Translations under genes and position numbers: made by a program
Source of the DNA: Rhodothermia bacterium
GTDB taxonomy: Bacteria > Bacteroidota > Rhodothermia > Rhodothermales > JAAAOL01
Length of the DNA stretch: 42,740 nucleotides
Reading direction: 5' to 3'
NCBI GenBank assembly: GCA_030428385.1
Contig: JAUIDY010000048.1
Span: 1-42,740 of the forward strand
Shown: in pieces, positions 9,802 to 39,402 of the stretch
Numbering within the stretch: the stretch's first letter is position 1
Layout: each line of letters starts with the position of its first letter
The notes under the pieces: model-generated
Database searches by the model: none
What the model saw: the letters and a program-made list of their open reading frames with translations, nothing else
What the model was told of the DNA's origin: nothing

Positions 9802-9807
9802 GGCGGT

Positions 9808-10140: not shown

Positions 10141-10147
10141 AGGGGTG

Positions 10148-10152
10148 CCTCC
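10148..10152 (-). promoter_or_regulatory. Shine-Dalgarno for padR
   Basis: GGAGG on the minus strand lies 7 bases before the GTG at 10140 and 10 bases before the ATG at 10137. A strong Shine-Dalgarno is uncommon among the other genes in this window. The spacing favours the GTG start. Confidence 0.6.
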
Positions 10153-10288
10153 GGGGAAGGAAGGTTTCTTCTACGGAGTAAAACAAATAGGTTGCACACG
10201 ATTTGCCTTAAAAATCAATGTTACCTCCGAACGCCTACCTGCATGGAGCGTGGGAGCGTAGGTTGATCTTACTACCAGCCTGAAAACT

Positions 10289-10362
10289 CCTCCTTTGAGG
10301 GAGGGGGCCCGTAGGGTGTAAACCGCACGCTGCCATACACCCCCAGTCGCTGCGCGACAGCC
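10289..10362. repeat. Intergenic palindromic repeat family B, copy 2 (right arm degenerate)
   Basis: This copy keeps the CCTCC/GGAGG hairpin (10289-10304), the GGGTGTA/TACACCC stem (10314-10320 with 10336-10342) and the GCTGCGCGAC block. Here GTCGC/GCGAC (10346-10358) forms its own small stem. The terminal C-rich/G-rich hairpin seen in copy 1 (7051-7072) is missing or mutated. It lies upstream of the YheT-like hydrolase gene and beyond the padR promoter region. Confidence 0.7.
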
Positions 10363-10421
10363 TCGTTTCCCGTACTCGCTATTCCCTACACCCTATTCCC
10401 ACAAAATCTCCCCAGCGCCTC

Positions 10422-11390: not shown

Positions 11391-11435
11391 GCTTCGTTTC
11401 CTACCTTCCGGTTTCGCCACACGGAGTTACCCACA

Positions 11436-11657
11436 ATGCTGGATTTTCTCGACCGTTTCCCGTTACCGCTGCTCATTTTCCTCGCCGTCTTGATGGCCGC
11501 GGCACCGTTTTATCCCGAGCCGCACCTGTGGCAAAAGCTCAAGATGCTCTTCGCCGGAACGCTCACGCAGCCGATTGATGTGTTCGACCTGTTTTTCCAC
11601 AGCGCCGGGCTCCTCCTCGTCGGCTTGAAGCTCGTGCGCATGCGGGCGGAGGAGTGA
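11436..11657 (+). CDS. Small two-helix membrane protein
   Basis: This 73-aa protein has a hydrophobic helix at ~9-26 and a second at ~51-66, with a conserved-looking loop EPHLWQKLKMLFAGTLTQPIDVFD between them. I recall short proteins of this pattern in several phyla, sometimes labelled 'RND transporter' in databases although far too small to be one. Its function is unknown. It lies 45 bases after the YheT-like hydrolase gene on the same strand. The composition is like that of its neighbours, which supports a real gene. Confidence 0.7.
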   Translation: MLDFLDRFPLPLLIFLAVLMAAAPFYPEPHLWQKLKMLFAGTLTQPIDVFDLFFHSAGLLLVGLKLVRMRAEE

Positions 11658-11672
11658 GGTCGCAGGTTATTC

Positions 11673-11687
11673 ATGGCTGTCAGCCAT
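11673..11687. other. Short perfect hairpin downstream of the 73-aa gene
   Basis: ATGGCTG-T-CAGCCAT forms a 7-bp inverted repeat with a single-base centre, 15 bases past the stop codon. No T-run follows, so a rho-independent terminator is not well supported. The following AGGCTTTCGGCTATC looks like part of a simple AGCC/GGCT repeat. Confidence 0.35.
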
Positions 11688-11737
11688 AGGCTTTCGGCTA
11701 TCAGTACAACTTCTTCGGCTCGTCGTCTCCTTGGCTC

Positions 11738-11820
11738 GTCGATTCAAACACTCACCCAAACTCCCACACCTCCAATCCCAACCGCCCCCAACCCTCTTCC
11801 CTCATCCCCCTTCCCTCAAG
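11738..11820. repeat. C-rich low-complexity repeat (opposite strand of the 3813-3890 type)
   Basis: The + strand has CAAACTCCCACACCTCC and many C-tracts (11785-89, 11792-94, 11799-801, 11806-10, 11813-15). Its complement shares GTGTGGGAGTTTGG with the G-rich stretch after the epimerase gene. On the minus strand it fits a G-quadruplex pattern with loops of 2-4 bases. It lies upstream of the YdiJ-like dehydrogenase gene, and no gene is seen in 11658-11907. Confidence 0.55.
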
Positions 11821-11907
11821 AATAAACCATGAGCTTCCGCTGCCCCTTTCCTCCATGGCAGAACGTTTCCTAGATTCCTCCTCCAACCCTCTCCTCAGCC
11901 CCACCCC

Positions 11908-18291: not shown

Positions 18292-19383
18292 TTGAGAGGG
18301 CTAAAAAATATCGGACTTGTGTTGCTCGTGGCCCTGGGGTTGCTGGTCGTGCTGGAAGGCAGTGTACGGCTCTTTTCGCCCCAGGGAGTGACAACAGACA
18401 TGGAGCAAGGCGAAGCCCTGGTTGTACGAGATTCCATGTTGGGGCATCGGCTGACGCCCGGTGCCGTGATGGTACAGCAGGGACCCGAATTCACAGCCCG
18501 GTACGTGATTAATACCATCGGGCACCGGGATCGTACCGTGACGCCTTCCCCGAGGTCGGGGCTTCAGATCTTGTTGCTGGGAGATTCTTTCGCTTTTGGG
18601 TACGGGAACGAGTATGAGGAAGGACTGGCAGGAGCGTTAGAGACCGTCTTGTGGCACGCGGAGCATGAGGTGCGTGTGATCAATGCCGGGGTGCCGGGCT
18701 ATGACACGCGGGCCGAAGTGCAGTATCTCGAACGACTCTGGGAGCAGACGCAGCCCGATATCGTGGTGCTGGTCTTTCTGGCAAATGATTTGTTTACCAA
18801 CCGCCCGCTGAATCAAACACCTTCTGCGTCGGAAGTGGTAACACGCGCAGAGAAGGAGGTTGGCTGGTTGCACGTGGTGGCCCTGTTGCGCCAATGGATT
18901 CTGCACAGCGATGCCCTATATCGCTGGTCCTATCGTCAGACAGCCCAGTCCGTATTTTTTTCACCGGCACCCAATGCAGACGTACAAAAACAGTTTGTGA
19001 TTACCGAAGCGTTGTTGAGGCGGCTTCATCTCCAAACGCAGGCGCATGGGGTACCGCTGGTTGTCGTTTCTATTCCTCAACAGATACAGGTCTTGTCGGC
19101 AGCAACCTCGAATGAAACATTCGATGCGCGAAGCGTGGACCTCCGGTTGAAGCGTACAGCGGACGCCCTCGGCTTTCCATGGATTACTACCCTTGACCCC
19201 CTCGCGTCTGCCTATGCACGAGGAGACGAACTATACTATCGCCTGGATGGACATCTAACACCAGTGGGCAATCGCGTGGTGGCAGCCGAAGCCGCCCGTT
19301 ACTTGCAGGCGGTGTTACCGCTGTTGGATCATCGCACAGACCCTAGTACCACAACCGCCCGTGGTGCCGTTGCAGGTAGGTGA
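18292..19383 (+). CDS. Membrane-anchored SGNH/GDSL hydrolase
   Basis: This 363-aa protein begins at a TTG codon (the first plausible start after the PhzF gene). It has an N-terminal anchor helix at ~5-24 and a large extracytoplasmic SGNH domain. Motifs are L-L-L-G-D-S99-F, NAGVPGYDT (Gly block), VFLANDLF (Asn block) and the C-terminal Asp319-G-His321-L-T-P-V-G. Such proteins often act as O-acetyl transferases or esterases on surface polysaccharides. Its position at the edge of a glycan locus supports that, but the direction of reaction is not known. The last 41 bases overlap the 3' end of the convergent glycosyltransferase gene. Confidence 0.82.
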   Translation: MRGLKNIGLVLLVALGLLVVLEGSVRLFSPQGVTTDMEQGEALVVRDSMLGHRLTPGAVMVQQGPEFTARYVINTIGHRDRTVTPSPRSGLQILLLGDSFAFGYGNEYEEGLAGALETVLWHAEHEVRVINAGVPGYDTRAEVQYLERLWEQTQPDIVVLVFLANDLFTNRPLNQTPSASEVVTRAEKEVGWLHVVALLRQWILHSDALYRWSYRQTAQSVFFSPAPNADVQKQFVITEALLRRLHLQTQAHGVPLVVVSIPQQIQVLSAATSNETFDARSVDLRLKRTADALGFPWITTLDPLASAYARGDELYYRLDGHLTPVGNRVVAAEAARYLQAVLPLLDHRTDPSTTTARGAVAGR

Positions 19384-20245
19384 GGGCGGCTTCGCCAAGC
19401 GGGCGGCGTTTGCTGCGAGGAAGTGCAGCGAGGCCATCGCGGAGCCCGCGTCCGAAGGCGGCGGTGGTGTGTTGACGGACCGCCACCAGCAAATACCAAC
19501 CCAGCCAAAGCGCTGTGTGTGTTATGGCGTAGCGGGCCGGGAGGTAGGTATAAGCCACGATCAGGCGGTTGCGCACGAGGTGGTAGGTCTTCCAGGCTCG
19601 GCTGGCCGGTGAGGGGGCACCTTCAGGTACGTGATAGGCCACCACATGCGGCAGGTACCAGATCTCAAAGCCGGCCTCGATAGCCCGGTACGACAGGTCG
19701 AGTTCTTCATGGCCGTAGCACAGCGCGGGTCGAAAGGGGCCGCATCGGGCAAAGACGGTGCGTCGGAGCGCGTGGGCGCCTGCGAGATAGTTCGACACGC
19801 GCCCCATCTGGTTGGCGAGGCGTGGGTTGTGGTACAGCGCCCGTCGGGGATGGGGCAGCAGCAGGTGTTCGGTGTCGCCGCGGGTTTCAATGAGCTTAAA
19901 CGCCAGCAGGCCCGCCTGTGGGAGTTCGTCAAAGGCGTCCACCACGCGTGAAAGGGCGTCGTCGTCGTCGAGGTAGGCGTCGTCGTCCAGCACCACAAAC
20001 ACGTCGCCTGTCGCCGCCTGCATTAGCCGGTTGCGGGCTTCGATGGGGCCAAGTTGGGTGGATGAATGCAGCAACTGGATGGGCAAGCCCTCAACCTCCA
20101 GCGCTTCCGTGCGCAGCGGCACCGCCGAGGCGTCGTCAAAGACGAATACATCGAAGTGTGGGTAGGATTGCCGGGCCAGGCTCGTGAGGCAACGATGCAG
20201 GGCGGCGGGGCGGTTGCGGGTCGTAACGAGGACCGACACCCGCAT
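19343..20245 (-). CDS. Glycosyltransferase family 2, translationally coupled to the PorU2-type sortase
   Basis: This 300-aa GT-A enzyme starts with a beta strand MRVSVLVTTRNRP. It has F-D-D-A-S for nucleotide binding and the metal-binding V-V-L-D-D-D-A-Y. E-E-L-D-L-S-Y-R, typical of rhamnosyltransferase-like GT2 proteins, comes near residue 175. ATG 20245 is preferred over an upstream in-frame ATG at 20392, because the upstream part is Arg-rich and lies inside the sortase gene. At 20243-20247 the minus strand reads TGATG, so the sortase stop and the transferase start share one base. That predicts coupled translation. It probably adds a sugar to a surface glycan at the cytoplasmic face of the membrane. 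The sugar donor is unknown. Confidence 0.9.
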   Translation of the reverse strand: MRVSVLVTTRNRPAALHRCLTSLARQSYPHFDVFVFDDASAVPLRTEALEVEGLPIQLLHSSTQLGPIEARNRLMQAATGDVFVVLDDDAYLDDDDALSRVVDAFDELPQAGLLAFKLIETRGDTEHLLLPHPRRALYHNPRLANQMGRVSNYLAGAHALRRTVFARCGPFRPALCYGHEELDLSYRAIEAGFEIWYLPHVVAYHVPEGAPSPASRAWKTYHLVRNRLIVAYTYLPARYAITHTALWLGWYLLVAVRQHTTAAFGRGLRDGLAALPRSKRRPLGEAALTYLQRHHGRLWY

Positions 20246-23200
20246 CAGCGCAGCACCACCAGCTTCTCGATGGCTTCGTCGTTGATGTCGAGGTCTTCGC
20301 CGTTGGCGCGCATAATCACCTTGTACAGGTACACGCCCGTCGCCACCTGATCGCCGTCTTCGTCGGTGCCATCCCACAACATTTTGTTCCACCCGATGCG
20401 AAGGCCGCCGCTTTCGAGCAGGGCCGGGTTTTCTACCAGGTTAAACTCGCGCACGACGCGCCCCGTCAGTGTGTAGATGCGGATGCGCAGGTCATCCACC
20501 ACACTCGGATCGCTGCCGCGCAGCTCGAACGCAAACCGCGTAAACGATCCCATCGGGTTCGGGTAGGGATACAGCGAACTGACGCCGAAGGCGTCGATGG
20601 CGGTAATCACGCGGAAGTGCACCTGATACGGGCTGCCGATGGCCTCGTTGCCAGCCACATCGAAGGCCCGCACGCGCAGCGTAAAGACAGCGTTCAGATC
20701 GGTGAAGTCGGGCGTAAAGATGATGCGGGCTTCGTTGCGGGCCTCCGTGGCCGGTTCAAATGAGACTTCGTTGCTCTGGAAATAAACCGTCCGTGTGACA
20801 CCCTCCGAGACGTTTTCCAACGTGACCGTGGCCAGGGTGGTGTCTTGCAGCAGCTTAAACGGGTTCTCGTCGGCAAAAACAATCTCGATGGTAGGCTGGG
20901 CCGAGACGACCGGGATGTCGGGACTCTGGAGGTCGCGCACGGGTTCGGGGTCGTGGGGCAGCATGTCGCCCTCCACACTGACCATCAGGGTGGGGGCCAT
21001 TTCGTCGCCCCGCACCGTGAATTCCGTAAAGGCGATGTTGTTGATCGTCACCGGCTCGCGGACGCTGGGCTGTTCGGCTTCCAGCGTGAGGCGGTTGGTG
21101 CCTTCCAGCCCCTCGGTGGCGATGGTAAAGTTGGTGGACACGGTGCCAAGCGGCGGGATGGAGGCAATGGTGTCGGCCCCGACCACCGAGGTGCGGTTGG
21201 CCGTGTCGGTGAGGCGCAGTTCGACCAGCACCGAGTCGGTAGGCTGGTCGCTCAGGTTGAGCAGGGCGCCGGTGGCGGTCAGCACGTCGCCTTCATTAAG
21301 CGTGTCGGCAGAGAGGGTAAAGGTGGCTGGATCGAGCACCACTTCAGACACGGTCGAAAAATTAACAGCCCATTGCAAAAGCTGGGGCGTAGCTTGCCGC
21401 GACGAGTCGCTGAGGGTGGCTTGCAGGCGCAAGAAGGGCGTCTCCTGCGCGCTGATGGCGGAGAGGTCGGTCAACGCACCCGGTGCACTGAGGTCGTCGA
21501 GCAAGACCGCATCGGTTTCGCCATCCAACACCGTCACGCTAATTTCACTGGCGGCGTTGGGCAAGGTGCCGTCCCAGGAGATGGATTCCCAGGTGCGGGC
21601 GGGTCCGATGCGGGGCGACTGGGTGGTACCACTTCCGGAGCGGAAGAAGAGCCGGGCATCCTGGACGAGGTCGACGTCGCTTTCGATCGCCATTTCTACC
21701 GTCTCATCGGGATGCCCGATGCGGGCAACCATGGTCCACAGGTCATTATGGTCCAGCGTATCAATAGCGGTACTCCCAAGGCCGCGCCACAGGGCCTTGA
21801 TGTCTTCGGCAATCTCCGTTTCCTGTGCGACGATGTGGCGGGTGCGGACGAGCACATAATCGTTTTCCTGGACTGTTTCCGTAAAGAGGGTGTCGAGGCG
21901 GGCACGAGCATCGTCCGGGGATTCAAAGTCATTTGCATAGGGCATGGCGGCCGTCTGCGCCCGTACTTCACCCGTGGTACCGTTGAGTACCACAATGCCA
22001 TATCCCAGCGACAAGCCCTGGTAGCTAATGCCGTCCACGAGAATGCGTCCCAACAATATGCCATTGTTGCCGGAGGAAGCGATCTCAATCTCACGGTCGA
22101 ATTCTGTGAACGACCACAGGGCTCCATCCCAGACCAGGCTGGGCGACTGGGTGTTGCGGTCGAAGAACGTTGCGTTTTGCTGCCATGCCTGTTCGGCTCC
22201 GCTGGCGGCCAGGTAAAAAGCCGATTCTTGCCACCGGGTAAGTTCATCGGGGTCGTTCACGCGGGCCCGCCAGTAGTAGGGCTGCTCTGTGGCAAGGGCC
22301 TGGGTGATTTCCCAGATAGCAAATCCTGCCGTGAACGCGTCTTCAAACTGGAGCAGGTTGGGAGAATCGAAGGTCGGGCTGCTGTCCAACTCAAACGCGA
22401 TGCGGGTGCTGCTGTTTTCCTCGGGGGTGAAGGCCACCCGCAGGCTCAGCGGCGATCCCGTGATCACACTCAGGTTGCGCGGGGCCACGAGGTCCACGTT
22501 CGTCGAGAAGATGACATGGCTGGTTTCGGCGGTGTTGTTGAGTTCCGAAACCTCGTCGTAGACGTTGTCAGGGTCGACCTGAACCATAAAGTTATTGGTG
22601 CCCACCATGCCGTCGTTGATGCGCACGGAGAACGCCAGCGGTGTCTCCAGGTCCGTAATGGTGCTATCGTAGGGCAGCGCCGCCCCTCCGGGTGGGGTGT
22701 GCAACAGGCGAAACTGCACCGGACCGCTGGGGACGAGGCCGAGGTTACGGGGTGTCACCAAAACCGTCAGTTGGGAATCGGCAGGGACCGGGGCCAGGGG
22801 TTCGATTCGGATCAGGTCAGACGTGGCAACCAGGTCTGGCTGAACCGGAATATTGAGGGTGGTGGCGGGGTCTCCAATCAGCCCGAATTGCACCAGGTCG
22901 CGCAGGGAAAAAGCGCCAGAGGTCGCATAGCGGCGTTTGGCTTCCTGAAAGACGGCTCCGATGACCCGCAGGGTATCGCCGAAGACGAGTTCGTGGGTTT
23001 CATCACCCAGCCGGGCCGAAGCGCTGATGGTACTGAGGCCGGACGTGCCCCAGTGCGCAATGGCCCCGTTGAGTGAGCCCAGCACCAATTGTTCTGCCAG
23101 CACGGGCACATCGCCATCTACATTGGCCCCGCCGCCAAAGGCCCCGGTGCGGCATCCCAGCGAGAGGGCAAGGGGCAACCGACCCGCGTTGTTAAACTCA

Positions 23201-25212
23201 GCAGGGGGGTCGACGACGATGTCCCAGGTCACTGCTGCCGAATGCCCGAAGTAGCACAGCCACGACGAACCCACCCGCAGCGAAACCCGGATCGAGTCCT
23301 GGAGGCTGGCGTCGGGCGGTAGTTCATCCGACACCGTGCGCACGAAGCGGGTGGTGTCCATGCCAGTGGGGGGGGCTAGCGCCCGCCCGGCCCAGCGGTT
23401 GATGTGGTTGCCCAGCAGGTTTTGTTCGCCCAGGTCGCGGCTGCCCACCATCATAATCATTTCCTTGTTCCAATCATCGAGCGGAGCGGCTTCATAGGAC
23501 TGAAGCTTTTGAAGGAAAAGAAGTCCGGCTTCGTTGTCGCGAAGCGGGAGACGCCCAATGGCCGTGAACTCGGTCCAGTCGTCTTCCCCTTCCCCTTGCA
23601 TGACGAGCCAGCCATCCGAGGAGGCTTGTCCATAGGAGATCACCTCCCACAGGGGACGGGGGCGGGTCCGGTCCGCATACAGCGCATCGCCCCACAGGGT
23701 GACGAAGCGGGTGGGCGTAGCGCTTTCGCGGGTGGTGCGCAGAAAACGGCGAACGGCAATGGGCGTGGGACGCCCGTAATCGAACTGGTCGTAGATGTCC
23801 TGGATGTCTACCACGAGGGTTTCATAGCCATTCTGACTGCTTCGGTACATGGCCAGGGCGTCCGCCGACGGGCGCAGCAAGGCCGACGAAATGATGAGGT
23901 AGTCGATGTTCTGGGCTTCGGCAAGCAGGTCGGAGGTCGTATCAAGCTGGATGGCTGCTGGTGCCAATAGCGCGTCGCGGGTGGTGGTCCAGTAGGTGTT
24001 GTTGCGGGTGGGTTGATGCGAAAAAGAGACGTCGCCTTCCGGGGTGGTGGTTAACGCCTGAAACCAGCGCGCCTGCGGATTAAATACCAGCACCGGGGCA
24101 CCGCCCAAGAAGCCGTTGAGGGCAAACTGTCCGCCTTCATTGCGTTCAATGGCAAAGTCCAGCCGCCCATCTACAGCGGTCAGGGTGCGGATGTAGGAAA
24201 TGTGGATAAAGTCGACATAGCTTTGGTGGGGGAAGGTAGCGGCATCGTTAAACGAGATGAGGCGCACCCGGAATCGGTTCTGGTTGTCGTCGGGGATGGC
24301 ATCCCCCCCTGCGGCACCGCGCAGCTCACCAAATTGGTAGCCGGACCAGGAGACCTCGTCATAGACGCGATAGTTTGTGGACCCATCCTCCTCGGTTTGC
24401 AAGGCCAACTGGATACGGAAAGCGGTGGGCGTACGGCTGTTTACCTTTGCCCATACTATGATGGAATCGGCCGCAAGGCCGGTCCGGGCGTCATTAATGA
24501 GGTTGAAGGTGTTGGTGCGGTTGGTCTCTGCGTTATTGCTGTTGTTATGCCGCAAGCCATTCCAATAATTTCCTTCCCCTCGGGTGTAGAAAGGGTTTTC
24601 TGTTTCTCCGCTATCGCCCGGATAATAGGTGTTGTCGGGTTCGGTAAACAGGGTGTCGCGGTAGGTAGTGATGACGTTGGCGAGGGGGGCAGGCGTGTCG
24701 GCTGTGTACCGCAGTCCTTGCCCGGACCCCCAGGTGAGCCAGTAGTGGGTGGTGTCGGTGTACAGGCTGTTGTAGGTACTGCTTTGCCAAGCCGGGTCCC
24801 GGTAGGCCCAGCTTTCATCGGTGCCCTGGTTGCGTTTGCCCACGAACAAGATCTGGGAGGCATCGGTGAGTGTGCTGGCATTGCCTTCATAAACCAGCGG
24901 GATCTCCTGGCCGTGTTCCAAAAGCCGAAGGCTGCTCGGGGTGATGGCTGACAGGTTCACCCCGGCCTGGGCGAGGTCGGTCCCGCGCACCTGATAGACG
25001 CCATCTTCGGTAACGGCAATCTTGACGTAGGACTGGGAGGGGTTGTACCACGACGGGTCGTAGTCGCTATCTTGCGCCACGGCGGTGGTCCACGCCACGG
25101 GCAGGGCCGCAAGAAAGAACAAAGCCCCCAGGAAACGGGCAGGGTGCAGGGGGTTAATCTCGAAATGAAACCCTTTTATGAAAAGCAACGGGTGCATGAG
25201 ATGGTTCAACAT
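20245..25212 (-). CDS. porU2: T9SS PorU2-type C25 peptidase/sortase with C-terminal sorting domain
   Basis: This is a protein of about 1655 residues. It starts at ATG 25212 (ATG 25197 also possible), which places a signal peptide at residues ~1-45; the frame extends upstream to 25377 without a signal-like sequence. The N-terminal beta domain has VTEDGVYQVRGTDL, a PorU/gingipain-like start. The C25 peptidase domain carries the catalytic pair His657 (Y-F-G-H-S) and Cys687 (L-G-C-R-T-G-A-F). CARDB- and Ig-like domains follow, up to the C-terminal module YPYPNPMGSFTRFAF with G-V-Y-L-Y-K-V and a K-L-V-V-L-R end, which is a T9SS/FlgD-like sorting domain. PorU-type enzymes cut the sorting domain off exported cargo and attach the cargo to a lipopolysaccharide glycan at the cell surface. 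The gene is coupled to a glycosyltransferase gene and surrounded by glycan genes. Confidence 0.85.
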   Translation of the reverse strand: MLNHLMHPLLFIKGFHFEINPLHPARFLGALFFLAALPVAWTTAVAQDSDYDPSWYNPSQSYVKIAVTEDGVYQVRGTDLAQAGVNLSAITPSSLRLLEHGQEIPLVYEGNASTLTDASQILFVGKRNQGTDESWAYRDPAWQSSTYNSLYTDTTHYWLTWGSGQGLRYTADTPAPLANVITTYRDTLFTEPDNTYYPGDSGETENPFYTRGEGNYWNGLRHNNSNNAETNRTNTFNLINDARTGLAADSIIVWAKVNSRTPTAFRIQLALQTEEDGSTNYRVYDEVSWSGYQFGELRGAAGGDAIPDDNQNRFRVRLISFNDAATFPHQSYVDFIHISYIRTLTAVDGRLDFAIERNEGGQFALNGFLGGAPVLVFNPQARWFQALTTTPEGDVSFSHQPTRNNTYWTTTRDALLAPAAIQLDTTSDLLAEAQNIDYLIISSALLRPSADALAMYRSSQNGYETLVVDIQDIYDQFDYGRPTPIAVRRFLRTTRESATPTRFVTLWGDALYADRTRPRPLWEVISYGQASSDGWLVMQGEGEDDWTEFTAIGRLPLRDNEAGLLFLQKLQSYEAAPLDDWNKEMIMMVGSRDLGEQNLLGNHINRWAGRALAPPTGMDTTRFVRTVSDELPPDASLQDSIRVSLRVGSSWLCYFGHSAAVTWDIVVDPPAEFNNAGRLPLALSLGCRTGAFGGGANVDGDVPVLAEQLVLGSLNGAIAHWGTSGLSTISASARLGDETHELVFGDTLRVIGAVFQEAKRRYATSGAFSLRDLVQFGLIGDPATTLNIPVQPDLVATSDLIRIEPLAPVPADSQLTVLVTPRNLGLVPSGPVQFRLLHTPPGGAALPYDSTITDLETPLAFSVRINDGMVGTNNFMVQVDPDNVYDEVSELNNTAETSHVIFSTNVDLVAPRNLSVITGSPLSLRVAFTPEENSSTRIAFELDSSPTFDSPNLLQFEDAFTAGFAIWEITQALATEQPYYWRARVNDPDELTRWQESAFYLAASGAEQAWQQNATFFDRNTQSPSLVWDGALWSFTEFDREIEIASSGNNGILLGRILVDGISYQGLSLGYGIVVLNGTTGEVRAQTAAMPYANDFESPDDARARLDTLFTETVQENDYVLVRTRHIVAQETEIAEDIKALWRGLGSTAIDTLDHNDLWTMVARIGHPDETVEMAIESDVDLVQDARLFFRSGSGTTQSPRIGPARTWESISWDGTLPNAASEISVTVLDGETDAVLLDDLSAPGALTDLSAISAQETPFLRLQATLSDSSRQATPQLLQWAVNFSTVSEVVLDPATFTLSADTLNEGDVLTATGALLNLSDQPTDSVLVELRLTDTANRTSVVGADTIASIPPLGTVSTNFTIATEGLEGTNRLTLEAEQPSVREPVTINNIAFTEFTVRGDEMAPTLMVSVEGDMLPHDPEPVRDLQSPDIPVVSAQPTIEIVFADENPFKLLQDTTLATVTLENVSEGVTRTVYFQSNEVSFEPATEARNEARIIFTPDFTDLNAVFTLRVRAFDVAGNEAIGSPYQVHFRVITAIDAFGVSSLYPYPNPMGSFTRFAFELRGSDPSVVDDLRIRIYTLTGRVVREFNLVENPALLESGGLRIGWNKMLWDGTDEDGDQVATGVYLYKVIMRANGEDLDINDEAIEKLVVLR

Positions 25213-25527
25213 GGTACAACGGAGGAGCAAACGTAACAGGTCAAAGATAATGCCGCCTCCTGAAAGGCTGTTTCTGGAGTTGTAATCGTAGGCATTACAG
25301 CGCCCGTGCTGTGTCGGTGCTCCCGCCTTTGGGTCCCGCGCATGCCGTGCGGCCGAGAAACGTTTGAACCCATTCATTCACCATGACATCGTGCTTGCTT
25401 CGGAAAGTCAATACAGCCGCTTAGAAAGAAGGGGCGGGAATACATAAAGACAAGCGCTTTAATCTACTGCTTTGTTTGCTACAAAACTAGGTGCCAGCCG
25501 TTGGTTGTGCATCAATAATTGGGAGCG
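25213..25527. other. Divergent intergenic region between sortase and flippase genes
   Basis: About 315 bases separate the two divergent starts. AT-richer stretches lie near 25380-25500, suitable for promoters in both directions, but I find no sequence close to the Bacteroidota consensus (TTTG and TAnnTTTG at correct spacing). An AGGAGG at 25541-25546 followed by ATG at 25551 is out of frame with the flippase and is inside its coding region. Confidence 0.4.
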
Positions 25528-26847
25528 ATGATGTTGAAAAAGGAGGCCCCATGGCAGCGCGGAGGCATGCTTCGGTTGGTAGCGCAGGGGGCACGGGGTG
25601 CCTTGGTGGCGCAGGGAATGGGGTTAGGGCTTGGATATGTGTTGCACGTCGCGTTGGCGCAGTGGATGGACGTGGTGGGCTATGGCATCTATACGTATGT
25701 GCTGGCGTGGACGTCGGTCTTCACGCTTTTCGCGGCAGCGGGCTTTCCGCTTAGCGTGGTGCGGTTTGTACCGGCCTATGAAGCCGGGCAGCAGTGGGGA
25801 TTGCTCCGGGGCTTTATGCGGTGGAGCACACAGCGGGTGGTGCTGCTCGGAAGTGTGGGGGCGCTGGGGTTTAGCCTGGGGGCCTGGGGTTGGGCATCGT
25901 CGTCCTATCGTTCGACCTTGGTGGTAGGCGGCGGGCTGATTCTTGTCAATGCCTTGTTTCACCTGTTGTCGGGGATGTTAAAAAGTGTCCATCGAATTAC
26001 GCTGGCCCATGCGCTAACGGCGCTGCGCCACGTGGGGGTGTTGGTGCTTGGGGTATTGGTAGTGAGCATCGGGGGTGGGTTGACCCCGGTTGTTGCGGTG
26101 GCGCTTACTGTGGCTGCCATCAGCATGGCCGGGTTGGGCTGTGTGCCGGTGCTATGGCGCTCGCTGCCAGCGGAGGTTGCCGCAACACCGCCTCGCTATG
26201 AAACCACGCACTGGTGGCGCATTTCGTTGTCGTTGTTTGGGGTGGGGGGATTTGCTCTGGTGTTGCACCAAACGGACTTGCTCATGGTGGGGTCGTTGCT
26301 AGGACCCGAAGAGGCGGGGTTGTATGCGGCCGCCTCACGCACGGCTTTGCTGGTTAACCTGATCCCGTTTGCCATCGCCGCCGCCGCTGACCCGATGGTG
26401 GCACGGCTCCACGCCCAGGACGATGTCCCGGCGTTGCAAGCGCTAACAAAGGCCACGACGCGCTGGGCGTTTGGGCTGGCGCTGGGTGTGGGAGGAGCCG
26501 TGGTACTCACGGGGGGGTGGATTTTGCTGCTTTTTGGAGAAGGCTTTGCCACAGCCTATCCGGTGCTGGTGGTGTTGGCGGGCGGGCATGTGGTACAGAC
26601 CGCCGTAGGCATCGCCGGAAGCCTGCTGAACCTCACGGGCCATCAACGCATCAGCCTGTATGTTTTTGGCGGATGCGCCCTGTTCAACGTGCTGCTTAAT
26701 GCGGTGGGGATCTGGCTGGGCGGCATGATGGGAGCAGCGATTGCCACGGTCATCACCACCGCGCTGCTCAGCCTTTTGCTCTGGGGCATGGCGCGTAAGC
26801 ACCTGCACATCGACGCCTCGGTTATAGCGGCGTGGCGGTCCTCCTAA
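25528..26847 (+). CDS. Polysaccharide flippase, Wzx/MATE-like (MOP superfamily)
   Basis: This 439-aa integral membrane protein has about 12 hydrophobic segments spread along its length. It has the first-helix pattern ARGALVAQGMGLGLGYVLHV and a cytoplasmic AAGFPLSVVRFVPAY. The mid-protein VLHQTDLLMVGSLLGPEEAGLYAAASRTA is typical of Wzx and other polysaccharide-export flippases. These move lipid-linked oligosaccharides across the inner membrane. ATG 25528 or 25531 is taken as start; an in-frame TTG at 25519 is an alternative. A short GGGAG precedes it. The stop overlaps that of the next convergent gene by four bases (CTAA). It is divergent from the sortase gene. Confidence 0.88.
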   Translation: MMLKKEAPWQRGGMLRLVAQGARGALVAQGMGLGLGYVLHVALAQWMDVVGYGIYTYVLAWTSVFTLFAAAGFPLSVVRFVPAYEAGQQWGLLRGFMRWSTQRVVLLGSVGALGFSLGAWGWASSSYRSTLVVGGGLILVNALFHLLSGMLKSVHRITLAHALTALRHVGVLVLGVLVVSIGGGLTPVVAVALTVAAISMAGLGCVPVLWRSLPAEVAATPPRYETTHWWRISLSLFGVGGFALVLHQTDLLMVGSLLGPEEAGLYAAASRTALLVNLIPFAIAAAADPMVARLHAQDDVPALQALTKATTRWAFGLALGVGGAVVLTGGWILLLFGEGFATAYPVLVVLAGGHVVQTAVGIAGSLLNLTGHQRISLYVFGGCALFNVLLNAVGIWLGGMMGAAIATVITTALLSLLLWGMARKHLHIDASVIAAWRSS

Positions 26848-28235
26848 TCCCAGGCGGGGCGCTTGAGCATCAACAGGGCGAGCAAAAGGACGGTGGGCCA
26901 GAGTTGAAAAAACAGCCGCGAGGTGGCGGTACGCAGCTGCCACAGCAGGTCTGCCGAGCTCATCGCCATCACGAGAAAGTAGCCCGTCAGCATCATGGTC
27001 AGCACAAGCAACCCGGTTTGGAGGCCCGGCTCTTTCCAGAAGCCCCGCCGAAGGCCGAGGATGCCCATGCACAGCATCAACAAATAAGCGGTCAGGGCAT
27101 CCGGGCGCAGAAACAAGGACAGGACGTAGCTGCCCATCTGTACCGTCCGGCTGGGGTCTAGCACTTGCGCTACCGCCTGCGGGGCCGCTTGGCTGGTCAG
27201 CAGGGTGCTGGGGCCTGCCACCTGCATTTTGAAATAGCACCATACCAGAAAGACGGGCACCCACCCCCACAGGAACACCCGCCCTTCGCGGAGCCAGGCC
27301 CCCCGCCCCGGCTGCTGAAACACCAGCACGAGTCCACGCGCCAGAACCAGCGCAAGCACAAGGAGCAACCCTTCGTTTTTTGTCCACATCGCGAGCCCGG
27401 CGCTCAGCCCTGCCAGCGCCCACAATCCGGTGGGTTTTTCCGGGCGCAGGTGGTCGTGCAACAGGTAGAGGGTCACCGCGGCCAACAGGTAGAAGGCGAA
27501 GGGGGCGTCGGCATATTGCGCGGCCCCGTGCCGGATGAAATAGGGCGTGCCAGCGAGCAAGAGGCCGCCCATCACCGCGTGCCACCGCCCCCGCAACGTG
27601 TGCAGCGCGGCCACCAACAGCAGAAGGGTGGCTCCGGTAAAGAGCGCTGCGAGCAGGGACGGGGCGGCAGGATGTTCGGCGCCCACGTACGTCCACAGTC
27701 GCGCCACGTTGGCGGGCAGGAGCAAGGGATAATCGACGCTGGACCACGCGATAATGGGCGAAAAGGCGCGTTCCCAGATGGGACTTCCCATAAACAAGAA
27801 GCGGGCCTTGAGATTCCACGACGCCCAGGCATCCCAGCCGCCATGCGGGGCGTTGAGAGACAGCAAGACCAGGTTGATGGCGGTTACCCCCAAAACACCA
27901 ACCAGCACAGCCATGCTTCCGGAAAAGGCAACAGGAGGCGGTATCGTCTGGGCGCGAGGCTGCCTCGGTGGCATCACGCGGCGATAGTAGAAGGCCAGCC
28001 CCAGCACCACGCATCCCACAATGGTTTCCGTCCAAACGACCACGGGGCCCGCATCTCCCGTTAGGGCCAAAATCAGGAAAAAGGAAAGGGAGGCGATGCC
28101 CAAGCCAGTTCCCACGGCAAAGGCCAGCACCAAAAGCGGCGAAACTCGGTGGCGGACGGGACGGAAGGCCCACCGGGAGACGACCCACCCGATGCCAAGG
28201 GGCCAAAGCAGCGCCGCAGCAAGCCATCCCATCAT
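26844..28235 (-). CDS. GT39/GT83-like membrane glycosyltransferase
   Basis: This 463-aa protein has many transmembrane helices, starting MMGWLAAALLWPLGIGWVV. An early extracytoplasmic loop contains G-W-D-A-W-A-S-W-N-L-K-A-R and then VDYPLLLPAN. A later segment QYADAPFAFYLL is like the loops of dolichyl-phosphate-mannose mannosyltransferase and ArnT-type enzymes. Such enzymes move a sugar from a polyprenyl phosphate carrier to a protein, lipid or glycan on the outer face of the membrane. The ATG at 28235 overlaps the stop of the upstream small gene as ATGA, so the two are co-translated. The exact family number is uncertain. A much longer minus-strand open frame through 26443-28227 is a shadow. 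Confidence 0.78.
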   Translation of the reverse strand: MMGWLAAALLWPLGIGWVVSRWAFRPVRHRVSPLLVLAFAVGTGLGIASLSFFLILALTGDAGPVVVWTETIVGCVVLGLAFYYRRVMPPRQPRAQTIPPPVAFSGSMAVLVGVLGVTAINLVLLSLNAPHGGWDAWASWNLKARFLFMGSPIWERAFSPIIAWSSVDYPLLLPANVARLWTYVGAEHPAAPSLLAALFTGATLLLLVAALHTLRGRWHAVMGGLLLAGTPYFIRHGAAQYADAPFAFYLLAAVTLYLLHDHLRPEKPTGLWALAGLSAGLAMWTKNEGLLLVLALVLARGLVLVFQQPGRGAWLREGRVFLWGWVPVFLVWCYFKMQVAGPSTLLTSQAAPQAVAQVLDPSRTVQMGSYVLSLFLRPDALTAYLLMLCMGILGLRRGFWKEPGLQTGLLVLTMMLTGYFLVMAMSSADLLWQLRTATSRLFFQLWPTVLLLALLMLKRPAWD

Positions 28236-28654
28236 GGCAAGGCCCGCCGTTGATACACCCGCACGCTGTCGTTGATCGCCGCCACTAAGGCCCAGGGTTC
28301 CTCCGGTGTGGCGGAAGGAATCGGAGGTGCCCCCTTCCCGTTGACGAGCATCCACGCATGGCGGGCCGTGGTGTCAAGCAGGGTGGGTGCCAGGGCGTAC
28401 TGCGCCGCCGTGAGGTAAAACATGGGGTGCTGATCCGCCTGGCGGTTGATGAAAGTCACGGTGGCGTCGTTGGGAAGCATCGGACGAACGGCATCCAACG
28501 CGGAAACATAGGCGGCCACAGGATTGGGGGGCTGTATTCCTGCACGACGCTGGTGTAACGTCCCGGATTCGGTATACAGGAGGTGCAGCGAGGTACAGAT
28601 CGTGGCCACTGCGACGAGTGTCAACACGCCCGCAGCCCGTGATTCAGAGGCCAT
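28232..28654 (-). CDS. Small membrane-anchored protein coupled to the GT39-like gene
   Basis: This 140-aa protein is read from ATG 28654. One N-terminal helix at ~7-26 (GVLTLVAVATICTSLHLLY) leads to a small extracytoplasmic domain with VAAYVSALDAVRPMLP, ATVTFINRQADQ and a Y-L-T-A-A-Q-Y-A-L-A-P-T-L-L motif. The last motif resembles soluble pieces found beside GT39-type membrane proteins, so it may act as a subunit or partner of the downstream enzyme. I do not know an assigned function. Its stop overlaps the next start (ATGA). Its start is divergent from the GT2 gene at 28782. Confidence 0.7.
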   Translation of the reverse strand: MASESRAAGVLTLVAVATICTSLHLLYTESGTLHQRRAGIQPPNPVAAYVSALDAVRPMLPNDATVTFINRQADQHPMFYLTAAQYALAPTLLDTTARHAWMLVNGKGAPPIPSATPEEPWALVAAINDSVRVYQRRALP

Positions 28655-28781: not shown

Positions 28782-29768
28782 GTGTCGGTGAACAAAAACA
28801 ATCCCCCGCAACAGATTCCAGCATGGCCCCGCGTGACGGTGGTAATGCTGGCGTATAACCGCAGCGCCGCCGTGCAGGAGAGCTTGCACCACCTCACCAC
28901 CCATCTGGAATATCCATCCGCTCAGCTTGACTTCCTCGTGGTGGATAATGCCTCGACCGATGGAACAGCGGCTATGGTGAAGGAGACCTTTCCGCAGGTG
29001 CGCGTGCTCACTAACGCCCGCAACCAGGGCGCGCCCGGTTGGAACACGGGCTTTCAGCAGGCCACGGGCGACTTTGTGCTGATCCTGGACGATGATGCCT
29101 ACCTCACAGGTACGGCACTGCAAGACGCCGTGCAGGTCGCGCACATGCATAATGCCGACCTTGTTTCGTTCACCATCCACGACCCCGAGGGGCGTTCGTT
29201 TAATGCCCATTACAACACCGGTTTGCTGTCGTTTTGGGGCTGCGCCGCGCTGGTCCGCCGGGAGGTGCTGGATGCTCTACAAGGCTATGACCCGCAGATT
29301 TTTCTATGGGGCAACGAACTGGAATTTACCATGCGGGCGTTGGATGCCGGTTTTTGCCATCTTTTTTTGCCTGACGTGGTGGCGATCCACCTGAAACCTG
29401 TGCCGACCCACCCGACGTACGACGGGCGGGTGCACCGCCTCAACACGCGCCACCTGGCATATATTGCTGCCAAACTGTTGCAGCCTGCCGAGGCGGTGTC
29501 GGTGCTGCTCCGACTGGGGCTCCGGCTGGGCCTCACGGCTTTGCGTCGTCCTTCGGCCTGGCCGATCTTTTTGGATCTTGTGAGCGGATTGCGTCAGGGA
29601 ATGCGGTACCGCCAGCCAGTGCGTGTGTCGGTGTCACGGTGTTATGCAAGGCATTTTCCCGAGTTTATCAACCAACTTCCCTACCGGCTGAAACACCGTC
29701 GCTGGACGGATTTCTTCGCCACCCGGACCCGCTTTTTTCCTTCCTCAACCGCCAGCTTGCGTCTATGA
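28782..29768 (+). CDS. Glycosyltransferase family 2
   Basis: This 328-aa GT-A enzyme has WPRVTVVMLAYNRS, L-V-V-D-N-A-S-T-D-G-T for nucleotide binding, and V-L-I-L-D-D-D-A-Y for the metal. W-G-N-E-L-E-F-T-M-R is the probable acceptor and catalytic region. The open frame extends upstream to 28524, but that part overlaps the divergent small gene. GTG 28782 (or GTG 28788) leaves about 127 bases for promoters and gives a normal N-terminus; ATG 28653 is a less likely start. The stop overlaps the next start as ATGA at 29765-29768. It is probably cytoplasmic and peripheral to the membrane, adding one sugar to a glycan. The donor is unknown. Confidence 0.87.
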   Translation: MSVNKNNPPQQIPAWPRVTVVMLAYNRSAAVQESLHHLTTHLEYPSAQLDFLVVDNASTDGTAAMVKETFPQVRVLTNARNQGAPGWNTGFQQATGDFVLILDDDAYLTGTALQDAVQVAHMHNADLVSFTIHDPEGRSFNAHYNTGLLSFWGCAALVRREVLDALQGYDPQIFLWGNELEFTMRALDAGFCHLFLPDVVAIHLKPVPTHPTYDGRVHRLNTRHLAYIAAKLLQPAEAVSVLLRLGLRLGLTALRRPSAWPIFLDLVSGLRQGMRYRQPVRVSVSRCYARHFPEFINQLPYRLKHRRWTDFFATRTRFFPSSTASLRL

Positions 29769-31096
29769 CCCTCGAAACTCTTCCTGTGGTGGTGTTGGGC
29801 GGAGGCGTGACCGGGCTGTCGGTGGGCTGGGCGTCGGGAGGAACGGTGTTCGAAGCCGCTGCCACGCCGGGCGGGATCTGTTCGTCATATTACCTACGTC
29901 CCGGTACCACCGAGCGCCTGCCCCAGCGCCCCGCCGATGGCAACGCCTATCGCTTTGAGTTGGGGGGCGGGCACTGGATCTTCGGCGGCGATGCGGAGGT
30001 GCTGCGATTTATTTCGACGCAAACGCCTGTGCGTACCTACCGCCGCCGGTCCGGGGTTTATTTTGCGGGGTCGGGGACGTATGTGCCCTATCCACTCCAG
30101 TATCACACCGCCGCGCTGGGGGCCACGGTAGCTGCGCAGGCCGTTGCGGAGTTAACCCATCCTACGCCTCCCACTGATGGAACAATGGCGGCATGGCTCA
30201 CCGCTCGTTTTGGGCCGACGCTGACGGCGCATTTTTTCGGTCCCTTTCACGAACGGTATACGGCGGGATTGTGGACGGAGATTGCGCCGCAGGATGGCTA
30301 CAAGTCGCCGGTTGATCCGGCGCTGGCAGCGCAAGGCGCACGGGGCGAGGGCGTCGCCGCGGGCTACAACGTGCAGTTCGTCTATCCATATGAGGGCCTT
30401 GATGCGCTGGCCCGTCGCCTGGCAGCCGGAGGAACCGTGCGGTATGGCAAACGGGCAGTTGCTATCGACTCGGCAGACAAGATAGTGCAGTTTGCTGATG
30501 GCACAGCAGTGCGCTATGATACCCTCGTTTCCACGTTGCCGCTCCACACGACGCTGGCAATGGCGGGGCTGGGTGAGGGGTTGGAAGCCGATCCGTATAC
30601 ATCCGTGCTGGTGCTCAACATCGGCGCGGTGCGGAGTGCGCGGTGCCCCGATGACTATTGGCTGTATGTGCCCGACAGCGCGTCGGGCTTTTTCCGCGTG
30701 GGATGCTATAGCAACGTCGAACCCGAGTTTTTGCCCGCTTCGGCGCGGGCTGCCGGAGACCGCGTGAGCTTCTATGTCGAGCGGGCGTTCCGGGGTGGCA
30801 CGCGCCCGACGGATGCTGAGGTGCAAGCCTATGCCGAGGGCGTAGTCAAAGAATTGCAGACGTGGGGGTTTATCGGCGAGGTGGAGGCTATCGATCCGAC
30901 CTGGATTGAGACGGCCTACACGTGGTCACGTCCTGGGTCTACCTGGCGTGCTGATGCCCTCGCCCGTCTCGAAGCCAAGGGCATCACCATGGTGGGGCGT
31001 TATGCCCGGTGGCATTTTCAGGGCATCGCCGATTCCATCCGCGACGGGCTGGCGGTGGGAGCGCCGTTGCGGATTGCGGATGTGGAAAAAGGGTAA
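29765..31096 (+). CDS. FAD-dependent oxidoreductase, UDP-galactopyranose mutase/protoporphyrinogen oxidase-like
   Basis: This 443-aa flavoprotein begins with an FAD-binding Rossmann motif V-V-V-L-G-G-G-V-T-G-L-S, then FEAAATPGGICSS. A near-C-terminal segment GRYARWHFQGIADSIRDG matches the second FAD-contact region of amine-oxidase-like and UGM-like enzymes. Between them is a substrate domain with FGPFHERYTAGLWTEIAP. Relatives in glycan loci either isomerise UDP-sugars to furanose forms or oxidise or desaturate lipid or sugar intermediates. The locus suggests a nucleotide-sugar or carrier step here. The start overlaps the GT2 stop (ATGA), so it is co-translated with that enzyme, and the next GT2 gene starts 5 bases after its stop. 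Confidence 0.82.
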   Translation: MTLETLPVVVLGGGVTGLSVGWASGGTVFEAAATPGGICSSYYLRPGTTERLPQRPADGNAYRFELGGGHWIFGGDAEVLRFISTQTPVRTYRRRSGVYFAGSGTYVPYPLQYHTAALGATVAAQAVAELTHPTPPTDGTMAAWLTARFGPTLTAHFFGPFHERYTAGLWTEIAPQDGYKSPVDPALAAQGARGEGVAAGYNVQFVYPYEGLDALARRLAAGGTVRYGKRAVAIDSADKIVQFADGTAVRYDTLVSTLPLHTTLAMAGLGEGLEADPYTSVLVLNIGAVRSARCPDDYWLYVPDSASGFFRVGCYSNVEPEFLPASARAAGDRVSFYVERAFRGGTRPTDAEVQAYAEGVVKELQTWGFIGEVEAIDPTWIETAYTWSRPGSTWRADALARLEAKGITMVGRYARWHFQGIADSIRDGLAVGAPLRIADVEKG

Positions 31097-31101: not shown

Positions 31102-32166
31102 ATGTTGTTGCCGCTTTTATTTCCGCCATTGCCAGCCACCCCGCTCGTTTCGGTGGTCATGGCCAATTACAACTATGCCCGTTTTTTGCCGGAAGCGCTC
31201 GAAAGCGCCGTGGGGCAAACGTTCCGTTCCCTTGAGGTGATTGTTTGCGATGATGGCTCCACAGATCATTCCTGCGACATCGTGGCGCAATACGCGCAGA
31301 CCTGTGATTTTATCCATCTAATTCGTCAGCCCAACCGGGGCGTGGCCGCGGCCCTGAACGCCGCGTTTGCACACGCCAAAGGCGACGTGATCTGTTTGCT
31401 GGATGCCGATGATGTGATGGATTGGCAGAAGCTGGCGGCGGTGGTGCAGGGGTTTCGCACCTATCCAAAGGCGGGAATGCTGATGCATGCCATGCAGGTG
31501 GTCGATGCCGCCGGGCGGCGGTTGTACCAGATGCCGGGAGCTGCACCGGACCAGGGCTGGATCGCTGATGCCGTGCGCCAACGCGGCGGGCGGTGGCGCA
31601 ACCTCCCCGCCAGCGCGTTGTGTTTCCGTCGCGAATTGGCGGAGCGCCTCTTCCCGCTCCCGGAAGCCGTCTTTCGCCGCGAGGCGGATGGGTTTCTGTT
31701 CACGCTGGCTCCGCTCCTGGCCGAGGTGGCGTATCTGCCCGAGGCGCTCGGAAGTTACCGACTCCATGGCGGCAACCTGACCGGAACCACGCGGCTCACC
31801 GTGACCACGGCACAGCGCCACCTGGATGCCCTCGAACGTATCAACGGGGCGGTGAATGAGCGGCTGCGGCTGTTGCAACCCGAAGCGCCGCCGCTCGACT
31901 TGCGGAAGCATCTCAACGCGCGGGAGCAGCGCTTCACGTTGCTGCTGTTTCAGGAGCCGATGCTGGTGATGCTGCTGCCCGAATTACTCTCGCTCATCAA
32001 GGCGCTGAAGGCCGACGATTTGTACAGCTGGGGGCGCAAGCTGTTGGGCATCGCGGCGTATGTCTCGGCGATGCTGGTGCCGGTTCGGTGGCGGGCAGCA
32101 TGGCTCTCGCGGATGCTGGGCATGCAAACGATTCGGCGGTTGCTTACCGCTTCACCGTCTGGATAA
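31102..32166 (+). CDS. Glycosyltransferase family 2
   Basis: This 354-aa GT-A enzyme starts at ATG 31102; the open frame before it runs through the end of the flavoprotein gene and is not used. Motifs are PLVSVVMANYNYARFLPEAL, C-D-D-G-S-T-D, and I-C-L-L-D-A-D-D-V for the metal site. A hydrophobic region near 285-330 may bind the membrane. It is typical of polysaccharide-building GT2 proteins. It is the third gene of a tight + strand run (28782-32166). The last 23 bases overlap the 3' end of the convergent GT4 gene. Confidence 0.88.
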   Translation: MLLPLLFPPLPATPLVSVVMANYNYARFLPEALESAVGQTFRSLEVIVCDDGSTDHSCDIVAQYAQTCDFIHLIRQPNRGVAAALNAAFAHAKGDVICLLDADDVMDWQKLAAVVQGFRTYPKAGMLMHAMQVVDAAGRRLYQMPGAAPDQGWIADAVRQRGGRWRNLPASALCFRRELAERLFPLPEAVFRREADGFLFTLAPLLAEVAYLPEALGSYRLHGGNLTGTTRLTVTTAQRHLDALERINGAVNERLRLLQPEAPPLDLRKHLNAREQRFTLLLFQEPMLVMLLPELLSLIKALKADDLYSWGRKLLGIAAYVSAMLVPVRWRAAWLSRMLGMQTIRRLLTASPSG

Positions 32167-33343
32167 GTACGTCTTCGAGGCGTGCGGCCAGTTTGCGGCG
32201 GTCGAACGCAGGCCGGGCGACGGTTGCACCGTGTGTGCCAGCTTCTACGAGCGTTTGAGGGGTAGCGAAGAGGCGATCCAGCGTCTGTGCCAGCGCGTCC
32301 GGTTGTTCGGGCGGGACGTACCAGCCGCAGCGGTGCGTTTCCACAAACCGCCGCATCCAGCCATCCGTCGTCACGATAACGGGCGTACCGGCCCCCAGAC
32401 TGTCGAAGAACTTAGCGGGGGAGTTGGTGGCGAGCACCGGGCGGTTGATAAAGGAAACCAGCGAAATATCGGCCATGTGGAACCACGCCATCATGCGGTG
32501 CCGCGGTTCAGGCGGCAGTGCCAGCAGGTTAGGCAGGCGGGCCGCGGCGGCCTGCACCAGCGGGGCTTCATGCCCGTCGCCGATGCAGACAAACTGCACC
32601 TCGGGGCGATGGGAGAGCCGCTCGGCGGCGTGCAGCAGCGTGGCGATGTCGTTGGCCCGCCCGTAGGTGCCGCCATACAACACCACGCGCTTGCCTGTCA
32701 GATGATGGGTGTCCCGCAGCGTATCGATCAAGTCAGGCGTGACGGCATCAAGCAGCCCCAGGTCGGTGCCATTCACCAACGTCGTGACGCGGCGGGGATC
32801 CACGCCTTGTTGCAAGACGTGCGCCTCCATGTCGGGAGAAAGGGGCACCACATGCGCCGCGTGGTGGTACAGCCGGTGCTCCAGCAAGTAGAGCATCCGT
32901 TGCAGCAGCGGGTGGCGAATGGCTCCCATCTGAATGGGGAAGTCGGGCCACAGGTCTTGCAAATGAAACACCCACGGCACCCCGCGTAACCGCCCCACCA
33001 TCGCGGCGGCCCATGCCGTGGTGAGCGGCGTGGAGACGCCCAGGATCACGTCCGGGCGGTCGATGCGCAGGCCCCGGAGCACGGCCCCGGCGGCAAACGA
33101 GGCAAACGACCGCAACCGCTGACCCACGCCCATGTGGTTGTTATAGGCCACCGGGAGCGCATGCAGCGTGGTTCCGGGGGGCACCCAGTTGAACTGGTGG
33201 GTCAGGCGGCGGTGTTGCCACGCATCGGTGGTGATGAGGGTAAGCCGGTGGCGTTGGCTCCACTCCGTGAGTAAGGTATGGTGGCTGCCCGTCGCAGCGC
33301 AGTCGGGGGTGTTGTAATGCTGGTAAAAAACCGCGATGTGCAT
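32144..33343 (-). CDS. Glycosyltransferase family 4 (GT-B fold)
   Basis: This 399-aa enzyme has the two Rossmann domains of GT-B proteins. The N-lobe opens MHIAVFYQHYNTPDCAATG and contains VPWVFHLQDLWPDFP, as in WcaI/WbuB-type transferases. The C-lobe starts near K-R-V-V-L-Y-G-G-T-Y-G-R and holds the donor-binding N-S-P-A-K-F-F-D-S-L-G-A-G-T-P-V. It probably retains donor configuration and acts on a lipid-linked glycan at the inner membrane. It is the last recognised gene of the glycan locus and is transcribed toward it. The donor sugar is unknown. Confidence 0.9.
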   Translation of the reverse strand: MHIAVFYQHYNTPDCAATGSHHTLLTEWSQRHRLTLITTDAWQHRRLTHQFNWVPPGTTLHALPVAYNNHMGVGQRLRSFASFAAGAVLRGLRIDRPDVILGVSTPLTTAWAAAMVGRLRGVPWVFHLQDLWPDFPIQMGAIRHPLLQRMLYLLEHRLYHHAAHVVPLSPDMEAHVLQQGVDPRRVTTLVNGTDLGLLDAVTPDLIDTLRDTHHLTGKRVVLYGGTYGRANDIATLLHAAERLSHRPEVQFVCIGDGHEAPLVQAAAARLPNLLALPPEPRHRMMAWFHMADISLVSFINRPVLATNSPAKFFDSLGAGTPVIVTTDGWMRRFVETHRCGWYVPPEQPDALAQTLDRLFATPQTLVEAGTHGATVARPAFDRRKLAARLEDVLIQTVKR

Positions 33344-38683: not shown

Positions 38684-38719
38684 ACGCACGAATCAAGCAC
38701 TCAACAATCCTGAACGCCC

Positions 38720-39355: not shown

Positions 39356-39361
39356 GGGGCA

Positions 39362-39379
39362 GGGCAAGCCGTTTTGCCC
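39362..39379 (+). terminator. Possible weak terminator hairpin after the response regulator gene
   Basis: GGGCAA and TTGCCC form a 6-bp stem with loop GCCGTT, six bases after the stop codon. No T-run follows, so intrinsic termination is doubtful. Confidence 0.3.
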
Positions 39380-39384
39380 ACGAG

Positions 39385-39402
39385 ATGACCCAAATGGGTC
39401 AT
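39385..39402. promoter_or_regulatory. 18-bp perfect dyad, candidate operator
   Basis: ATGACCCA-AA-TGGGTCAT has 8-bp arms that match exactly around a 2-base centre. It lies 29 bases after the response regulator stop and 63 bases before the start of the exported FG-GAP protein gene. LuxR/NarL-type regulators bind dyads of about this length as dimers, so it is a candidate target for the adjacent regulator. Only one copy is seen in the window. Confidence 0.45.

Follow-up and report, generated by a model that had tools for sequence, protein, structure and literature searches.

The DNA analysed here, referred to as the window, covers positions 1 to 42,740 of contig JAUIDY010000048.1 from a Rhodothermia bacterium (assembly GCA_030428385.1). 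Our subject is a gene on its minus strand (20245..25212) that encodes a PorU2-like sortase of peptidase family C25, predicted to serve the type IX secretion system (T9SS). The long open reading frame (ORF) runs from 20245 to 25377; its likeliest start is the ATG at 25212, giving 1655 amino acids, and the frame is open upstream to 25377. Directly downstream on the same strand lies GT2a (19343..20245, minus), a family 2 glycosyltransferase (GT2) of 300 amino acids (PF00535, 4.6e-23). The initial annotation had pointed out that the two genes share one base, and ORF reading confirmed this: in the sequence TGATG, the TGA closes the sortase ORF and its final A, base 20245, is the first base of the GT2a ATG.

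The C25 domain of the sortase is well matched (PF01364, 6e-53). The nearest named family is NCBIfam NF052324, "putative T9SS sortase PorU2," which the protein matched over residues 88-948 with 397.8 bits (1e-118). Since this score lies under the curated cut-off of 450 bits, we term the protein PorU2-like; among 114 genomes of the order Rhodothermales, the cut-off was exceeded in one. The match to the PorU family NF033707 (235.8 bits) is also below its cut-off of 420. The window's genome (G000; 6.19 Mb, 245 contigs) encodes exactly two C25 proteins, the window sortase and, adjoining PorV on contig C149, a typical PorU (PorU1; 962.9 bits with NF033707). In a tree, PorU1 and PorU2 proteins form separate groups, each fully supported, and the Rhodothermales PorU2 clade falls among NF052324 matches. 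The solved structure closest to the PorU2 profile is that of PorU (6za2, E 6e-37), while gingipain R was matched weakly. The secretion machinery is present in the genome, with SprA on contig C210 and PorV on C149. We consider the window protein to be, probably, a second T9SS sortase distinct from the genome's PorU1. TIGR04183, the T9SS sorting-domain model, matched at least 150 times in the genome as a whole, which makes for an unusually large set of cargo.

The protein consists of a signal peptide, the C25 domain (residues 438-786), a CARDB-like region, a domain with the ILEI/FAM3 fold (about 1035-1184), an Ig-like region and a putative C-terminal T9SS sorting domain. The Cys/His dyad, His657/Cys687, is invariant in all 16 PorU2 orthologs compared. 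The C-terminus matches the FlgD_ig-like model weakly (23.6 bits, cut-off 27); it is conserved across all orthologs and shares about 40% identity with the PorU1 C-terminus. The ILEI/FAM3-fold domain, which resembles the stem domain of POMGnT1 and is coded by 21661..22200 (minus), sets PorU2 apart from PorU1. Pfam ILEI (PF15711) was found in 14 of 16 PorU2 proteins within the order and 19 of 28 outside it (best 1.4e-20), against 0 of 18 PorU1 proteins. A profile of the region matched the POMGnT1 stem (E 1.5e-6) and FAM3C (2.7e-4). An AlphaFold model of it (mean predicted confidence, pLDDT, 88) retrieved FAM3C and POMGnT1 in Foldseek (1e-7 to 5e-7) and superposed on POMGnT1 with a Z score of 16.7 and a root mean square deviation of 2.2 over 131 residues. 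Sugar binding is described for FAM3C and for the stem of POMGnT1 (PMC9802357), and the PorU2 domain, having the same fold, may bind sugars too.

We surveyed PorU2 and its neighbours across the order, counting split fragments, and found PorU2 in 38 of the 114 genomes. A glycan gene lay within 2 kb of PorU2 in 37 of 40 loci or fragments, the exceptions being on short contigs. The usual locus reads Wzc (opposite strand), aminotransferase, sugar-1-phosphate transferase, NeuD/PglD acetyltransferase, a family 4 glycosyltransferase (GT4), membrane dehydratase (PF02719), PorU2, a further GT4, GMP and Wzx. In these relatives, the NeuD/PglD proteins score above the NCBIfam cut-off; the PseB-like, PseC-like and Bac_transf proteins score below theirs and are strong in Pfam. 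In a Pfam tally that took in the two nearest genes to either side, GT1/4 domains occurred in 34 of 102 PorU2 neighbours and PF02719 in 16 of 102. By comparison, GT1/4 domains were present in 3 of 133 neighbours of random loci, and none of the 59 neighbours of PorU1, which sits with PorV, was a glycosyltransferase. Outside the order, 15 of 133 PorU2 neighbours carried GT1/4 domains, 5 were GT2 and 4 were WecG-type. Fisher tests gave p values of 2.7e-11 against random loci, 2.7e-8 against PorU1 and 0.006 outside the order; as these ignore relatedness, they serve as a guide only. Every one of the 26 genomes that yielded an ortholog of the dehydratase has PorU2, whereas 0 of the 76 genomes without PorU2 yielded one. 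In G004, G018, G028, G040, G047 and G088 the translocon gene sprA and PorU2 are about 7-25 kb apart. The shorter distances, about 7-10 kb, are those in G004, G018, G028 (family f4) and G040. Tandem pairs of PorU2 occur at two loci, L080 (G266) and L093 (G339).

The GT2a subfamily, delimited by a profile search at E <= 1e-55, is present in 5 of the 114 genomes, which belong to five genera in families f1, f8 and f10. In all five it stands directly downstream of PorU2, so that within the order this GT2 pairs exclusively with PorU2. In the tree, the lineages concerned are not sisters. GT2a was rejected as a general partner of PorU2, being present in 5 of 38 PorU2 genomes. The initial annotation had proposed that the GT2 gene is coupled to the sortase. 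The adjacency held up, in five genomes of three families; the overlap did not, being found in this genome alone, and the partner that recurs across the order is a Pgl-like amino-sugar cassette with GT4. Because GT2a adjacency and glycan loci recur in relatives, the association of sortase with glycan genes is not a peculiarity of one genome.

Translational coupling of the two genes, which the initial annotation had read into the shared base, fared less well. Among the relatives that possess GT2a, its distance from PorU2 is about +4, +8 or +29, +25 and +146, compared with -1 in the window. Coupling is hence a local feature at best. Overlaps of -1 or -4 make up 9-23% of close co-directional gene pairs in PorU2 loci; being common and not conserved, the TGATG overlap was rejected as a sign of special coupling. 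Nor do sortase and glycan assembly form the single unit that had been proposed: most glycan genes of the window are on the opposite strand, and because these include the Wzx gene and a GT2-FAD-GT2 trio, with the SGNH gene likewise on that strand, the window genes are not one transcription unit. Judged by their arrangement, sortase and GT2a are the sole window genes placed for co-transcription. At another locus, L038 of G043 (7616-13407), PorU2 overlaps a downstream polysaccharide deacetylase gene (PF01522) by 4 bases. PF01522 is the enzyme family of VimE, thought to expose the linking-sugar amine in Porphyromonas gingivalis.

The T9SS is nearly universal in the order (SprA in 112 of 114 genomes, PorV in all 114), and its attachment components are less so: PorU1 occurs in 86 genomes and PorZ in 78, the two together in 76. 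PorU1 and PorZ have been lost jointly in family f13 (Salinibacter, Salinivenus, Longimonas), where 26 of the 27 genomes have neither and one, G079, has the pair. PorU2 is the only C25 sortase left in 18 of the 27, and the nine PorU2-only f13 genomes searched have 16-58 T9SS sorting-domain matches each. That a sortase carrying its own sugar-binding-like domain is kept in genomes that have lost both PorU and PorZ agrees with a route independent of PorZ. Eight further f13 genomes (G013, G085, G091-G093 and G080-G082) have PorV, and all but G085 have SprA; at the thresholds used they have neither PorU1 nor PorU2. Of these, G013 still has 15 matches to the sorting domain. The T9SS of this set apparently lacks a C25 sortase; several of the genomes are incomplete.

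How might PorU2 work? In P. gingivalis, PorU joins the cargo C-terminus to the amine of an amino sugar, and PorZ supplies A-type lipopolysaccharide (A-LPS) to PorU (PMC10202324, PMC7468200). By analogy, PorU2 would probably be exported by the T9SS via its own C-terminal domain. Its Cys/His dyad would then most likely act as a transpeptidase, cleaving the C-terminal domain of the cargo, and the new C-terminus would most likely be joined to an amine-bearing sugar of a surface glycan built by the surrounding genes. The FAM3/POMGnT1-stem-like domain most likely holds this acceptor in cis, as PorZ does in trans for PorU, and may thus do the work of PorZ. The Pgl-like cassette found in most PorU2-bearing Rhodothermales (4,6-dehydratase, aminotransferase, acetyltransferase, sugar-1-phosphate transferase and GT4) is expected to make an undecaprenyl-linked glycan. 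Our guess from the dehydratase/aminotransferase pair is that this glycan would begin with a 4-amino-4,6-dideoxy sugar. GT2a, present in this lineage and two other families, would probably add one lineage-specific acceptor sugar. A dedicated glycan anchor for PorU2 is plausible.

Taken together, the domain content, the loci and the distribution are best explained, and somewhat better than evenly so in our estimate, if PorU2, as a second T9SS sortase, links cargo to a glycan made next door and carries a built-in glycan-binding module. Could the acceptor instead be bulk LPS or O-antigen, the locus being merely the O-antigen locus and providing no dedicated anchor? The nearby genes for Wzx, Wzc, GMP and a sugar dehydrogenase are typical of O-antigen or exopolysaccharide (EPS) loci, and A-LPS may itself be a form of O-LPS in P. 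gingivalis (PMC11969387). Yet PorU1 should use the same LPS, and it has no glycosyltransferase neighbours. Furthermore, the dehydratase ortholog and GT2a are limited to PorU2 genomes, although genomes with PorU1 alone must make surface glycans as well. Use of bulk LPS thus seems to us unlikely, though it deserves to be taken seriously. We are more doubtful still that PorU2 is an endopeptidase whose task is to trim or mature cargo or surface proteins, with no transfer to sugar. Family C25 does include the gingipain proteases, the PorU2 profile has its weak match to gingipain R, and transpeptidation is not readable from sequence. Against this, the nearest structural relative is PorU, not the gingipains, and a plain protease would leave both the sugar-binding-like domain and the glycan locus unexplained.

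The surroundings of PorU2 might also be a historical accident: the gene would have entered a glycan island a single time, in the order's ancestor, and inheritance would have kept it there with no functional link to its neighbours. That the PorU2 proteins of the order form one clade, and that membership of the cassette varies between genomes, would agree with such hitchhiking. But the flanks of PorU2 have been reshuffled in gene identity and orientation, and the neighbours are still glycan genes; beyond the order, too, some PorU2 genes belong to glycan loci, where GT4, GT2, WecG and Wzi genes surround them; and GT2a follows PorU2 in lineages that are not sisters. We therefore regard simple inheritance of position as very improbable.

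Several observations weigh against a sortase that attaches cargo to a glycan made next door. Because PorU2 of the order is a single clade, its neighbourhood counts are not phylogenetically independent. At the window's own locus a complete Pgl-like cassette was rejected: the GT4 ortholog lies 7 kb from PorU2, a Ugd-Wzc-aminotransferase-PglC block (PglE/PglC) is on contig C174, and G000 yielded no dehydratase ortholog at E 1e-110. The GT2a overlap, as described above, is not conserved. In another Bacteroidota clade (L073-L087), many PorU2 genes adjoin PorV-like, tyrosyl-tRNA synthetase or unrelated genes rather than glycan genes; hence not every member of the PorU2 family is associated with glycan genes. 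Finally, N-acetylglucosamine (GlcNAc) contacts of POMGnT1 include Arg129 and Arg207 (PMC9802357). In a profile alignment with the PorU2 domain, Arg129 is replaced by Leu and Arg207 by Asn, and the Asp179 stretch is gapped. As the two arginines are not conserved, either the ligand of the PorU2 domain differs or binding has been lost.

The wider proposal, which we hold tentatively and at somewhat less than even confidence, is that PorU2-bearing Bacteroidota have a second, PorZ-independent T9SS route, comprising a sortase with its own glycan-binding domain and a dedicated amino-sugar glycan from adjacent Pgl-like genes, and that this route has replaced PorU-PorZ altogether in the Salinibacter family.

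PorU2 and the PorU of the P. gingivalis attachment complex (PorQ/U/V/Z) have in common a C25 domain with a Cys/His dyad, a C-terminus resembling the sorting domain and a T9SS in the same genomes, and the PorU structure 6za2 is the best PDB match of PorU2. PorU2 differs in its separate clade, its extra CARDB and FAM3/POMGnT1-like domains, its place in a glycan locus rather than beside PorV, and its occurrence where PorZ is absent. The FAM3/POMGnT1-like domain has the fold of the POMGnT1 stem and FAM3 proteins (5ggj, 5lc2), for which sugar binding is known; however, it lacks two of three GlcNAc-contact residues and sits inside a bacterial sortase. The linking sugar of the Wbp/Vim pathway (PMC7468200) and the linker of Prevotella intermedia, an N-alanyl deoxyhexose-N-acetylhexosamine (PMC11969387), are both amino sugars whose amine receives the cargo C-terminus, and aminotransferase and acetyltransferase steps recur in the PorU2 loci. 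The PorU2-locus enzymes differ in being of the 4,6-dehydratase/4-aminotransferase (Pgl/Pse) type and in adjoining the sortase in relatives. P. intermedia makes its different linker while lacking key Wbp/Vim enzymes (PMC11969387), so T9SS linkers vary among species.

Encoding a protein-sorting transpeptidase with exopolysaccharide genes has a parallel in outline in exosortase EpsH/XrtA and the PEP-CTERM system (Haft 2006, PMC1569441). The analogy is one of arrangement only: exosortase is an unrelated membrane enzyme with an unrelated sorting signal, whereas PorU2 would act at the cell surface after T9SS export. For exosortase and rhombosortase systems, the gene neighbourhoods of sortases and of wbp/vim have been discussed in a 2020 paper in mBio. 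The PorU2 family name in NCBIfam and EPS-linked sorting by exosortases are thus already known. Our literature search on PorU2 or Rhodothermota T9SS sortases, with subscription journals outside its scope, returned nothing relevant; within that literature the PorU2 locus, its ILEI domain and PorZ independence appear undescribed.

In the same literature, T9SS linking sugars have been worked out for three oral species (P. gingivalis, Tannerella forsythia and P. intermedia) and differ among them, and porU itself offers no clue to the linking sugar. Should the genes for the acceptor indeed lie next to PorU2, that glycan would be predictable from the genome, and the prediction could be tested in harmless culturable halophiles such as Salinivenus, which like Salinibacter altiplanensis has PorU2 as its only C25 sortase, or in Roseithermus, which has both sortases. 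Attachment without PorZ would, if the proposal is true, be explained by the FAM3/POMGnT1-like domain built into the sortase, and the Salinibacter family, lacking PorU as well as PorZ, amounts to a naturally occurring double knockout.

The neighbours named in the initial annotation are real, each with a Pfam match. The SGNH/AlgX-like hydrolase gene (18292..19383, plus; PF13472 1.5e-13, PF16822 2e-10) is convergent with GT2a; it was rejected as a member of the system because it is not recurrent in PorU2 loci. Divergent from the sortase is a Wzx/MATE-type flippase gene (25567..26847, plus; PF01943 2.3e-18) with orthologs in several PorU2 loci, followed by a PMT_2 (GT39-like) membrane glycosyltransferase gene (26844..28355, minus; PF13231 8.3e-11). 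Next comes the GT2-FAD-GT2 trio, all on the plus strand. GT2b (28845..29768; PF00535 2.3e-22) has an uncertain start codon, its frame being open from 28524. The flavin adenine dinucleotide (FAD) enzyme (29765..31096; PF01593 3.1e-6) is amine-oxidase/UDP-galactopyranose-mutase-like and recurs in PorU2 loci, with copies 53-63% identical near PorU2 in G007, G008, G020, G030 and G047. The start of GT2c (31159..32166; PF00535 4e-30) is likewise uncertain, with the frame open from 31009. GT4a (32144..33343, minus; PF13579 3e-18) is orthologous to the GT4 that belongs to the Pgl-like cassette, and copies 41-59% identical lie upstream of PorU2 in many genomes. Farther along, at 35450-41297, sequence reading suggests genes in a row for a sensor-like beta-propeller protein of 1077 amino acids, a response regulator of the LuxR type and an FG-GAP protein. 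The FG-GAP protein, whose C-terminus is T9SS-like, is likely T9SS cargo.

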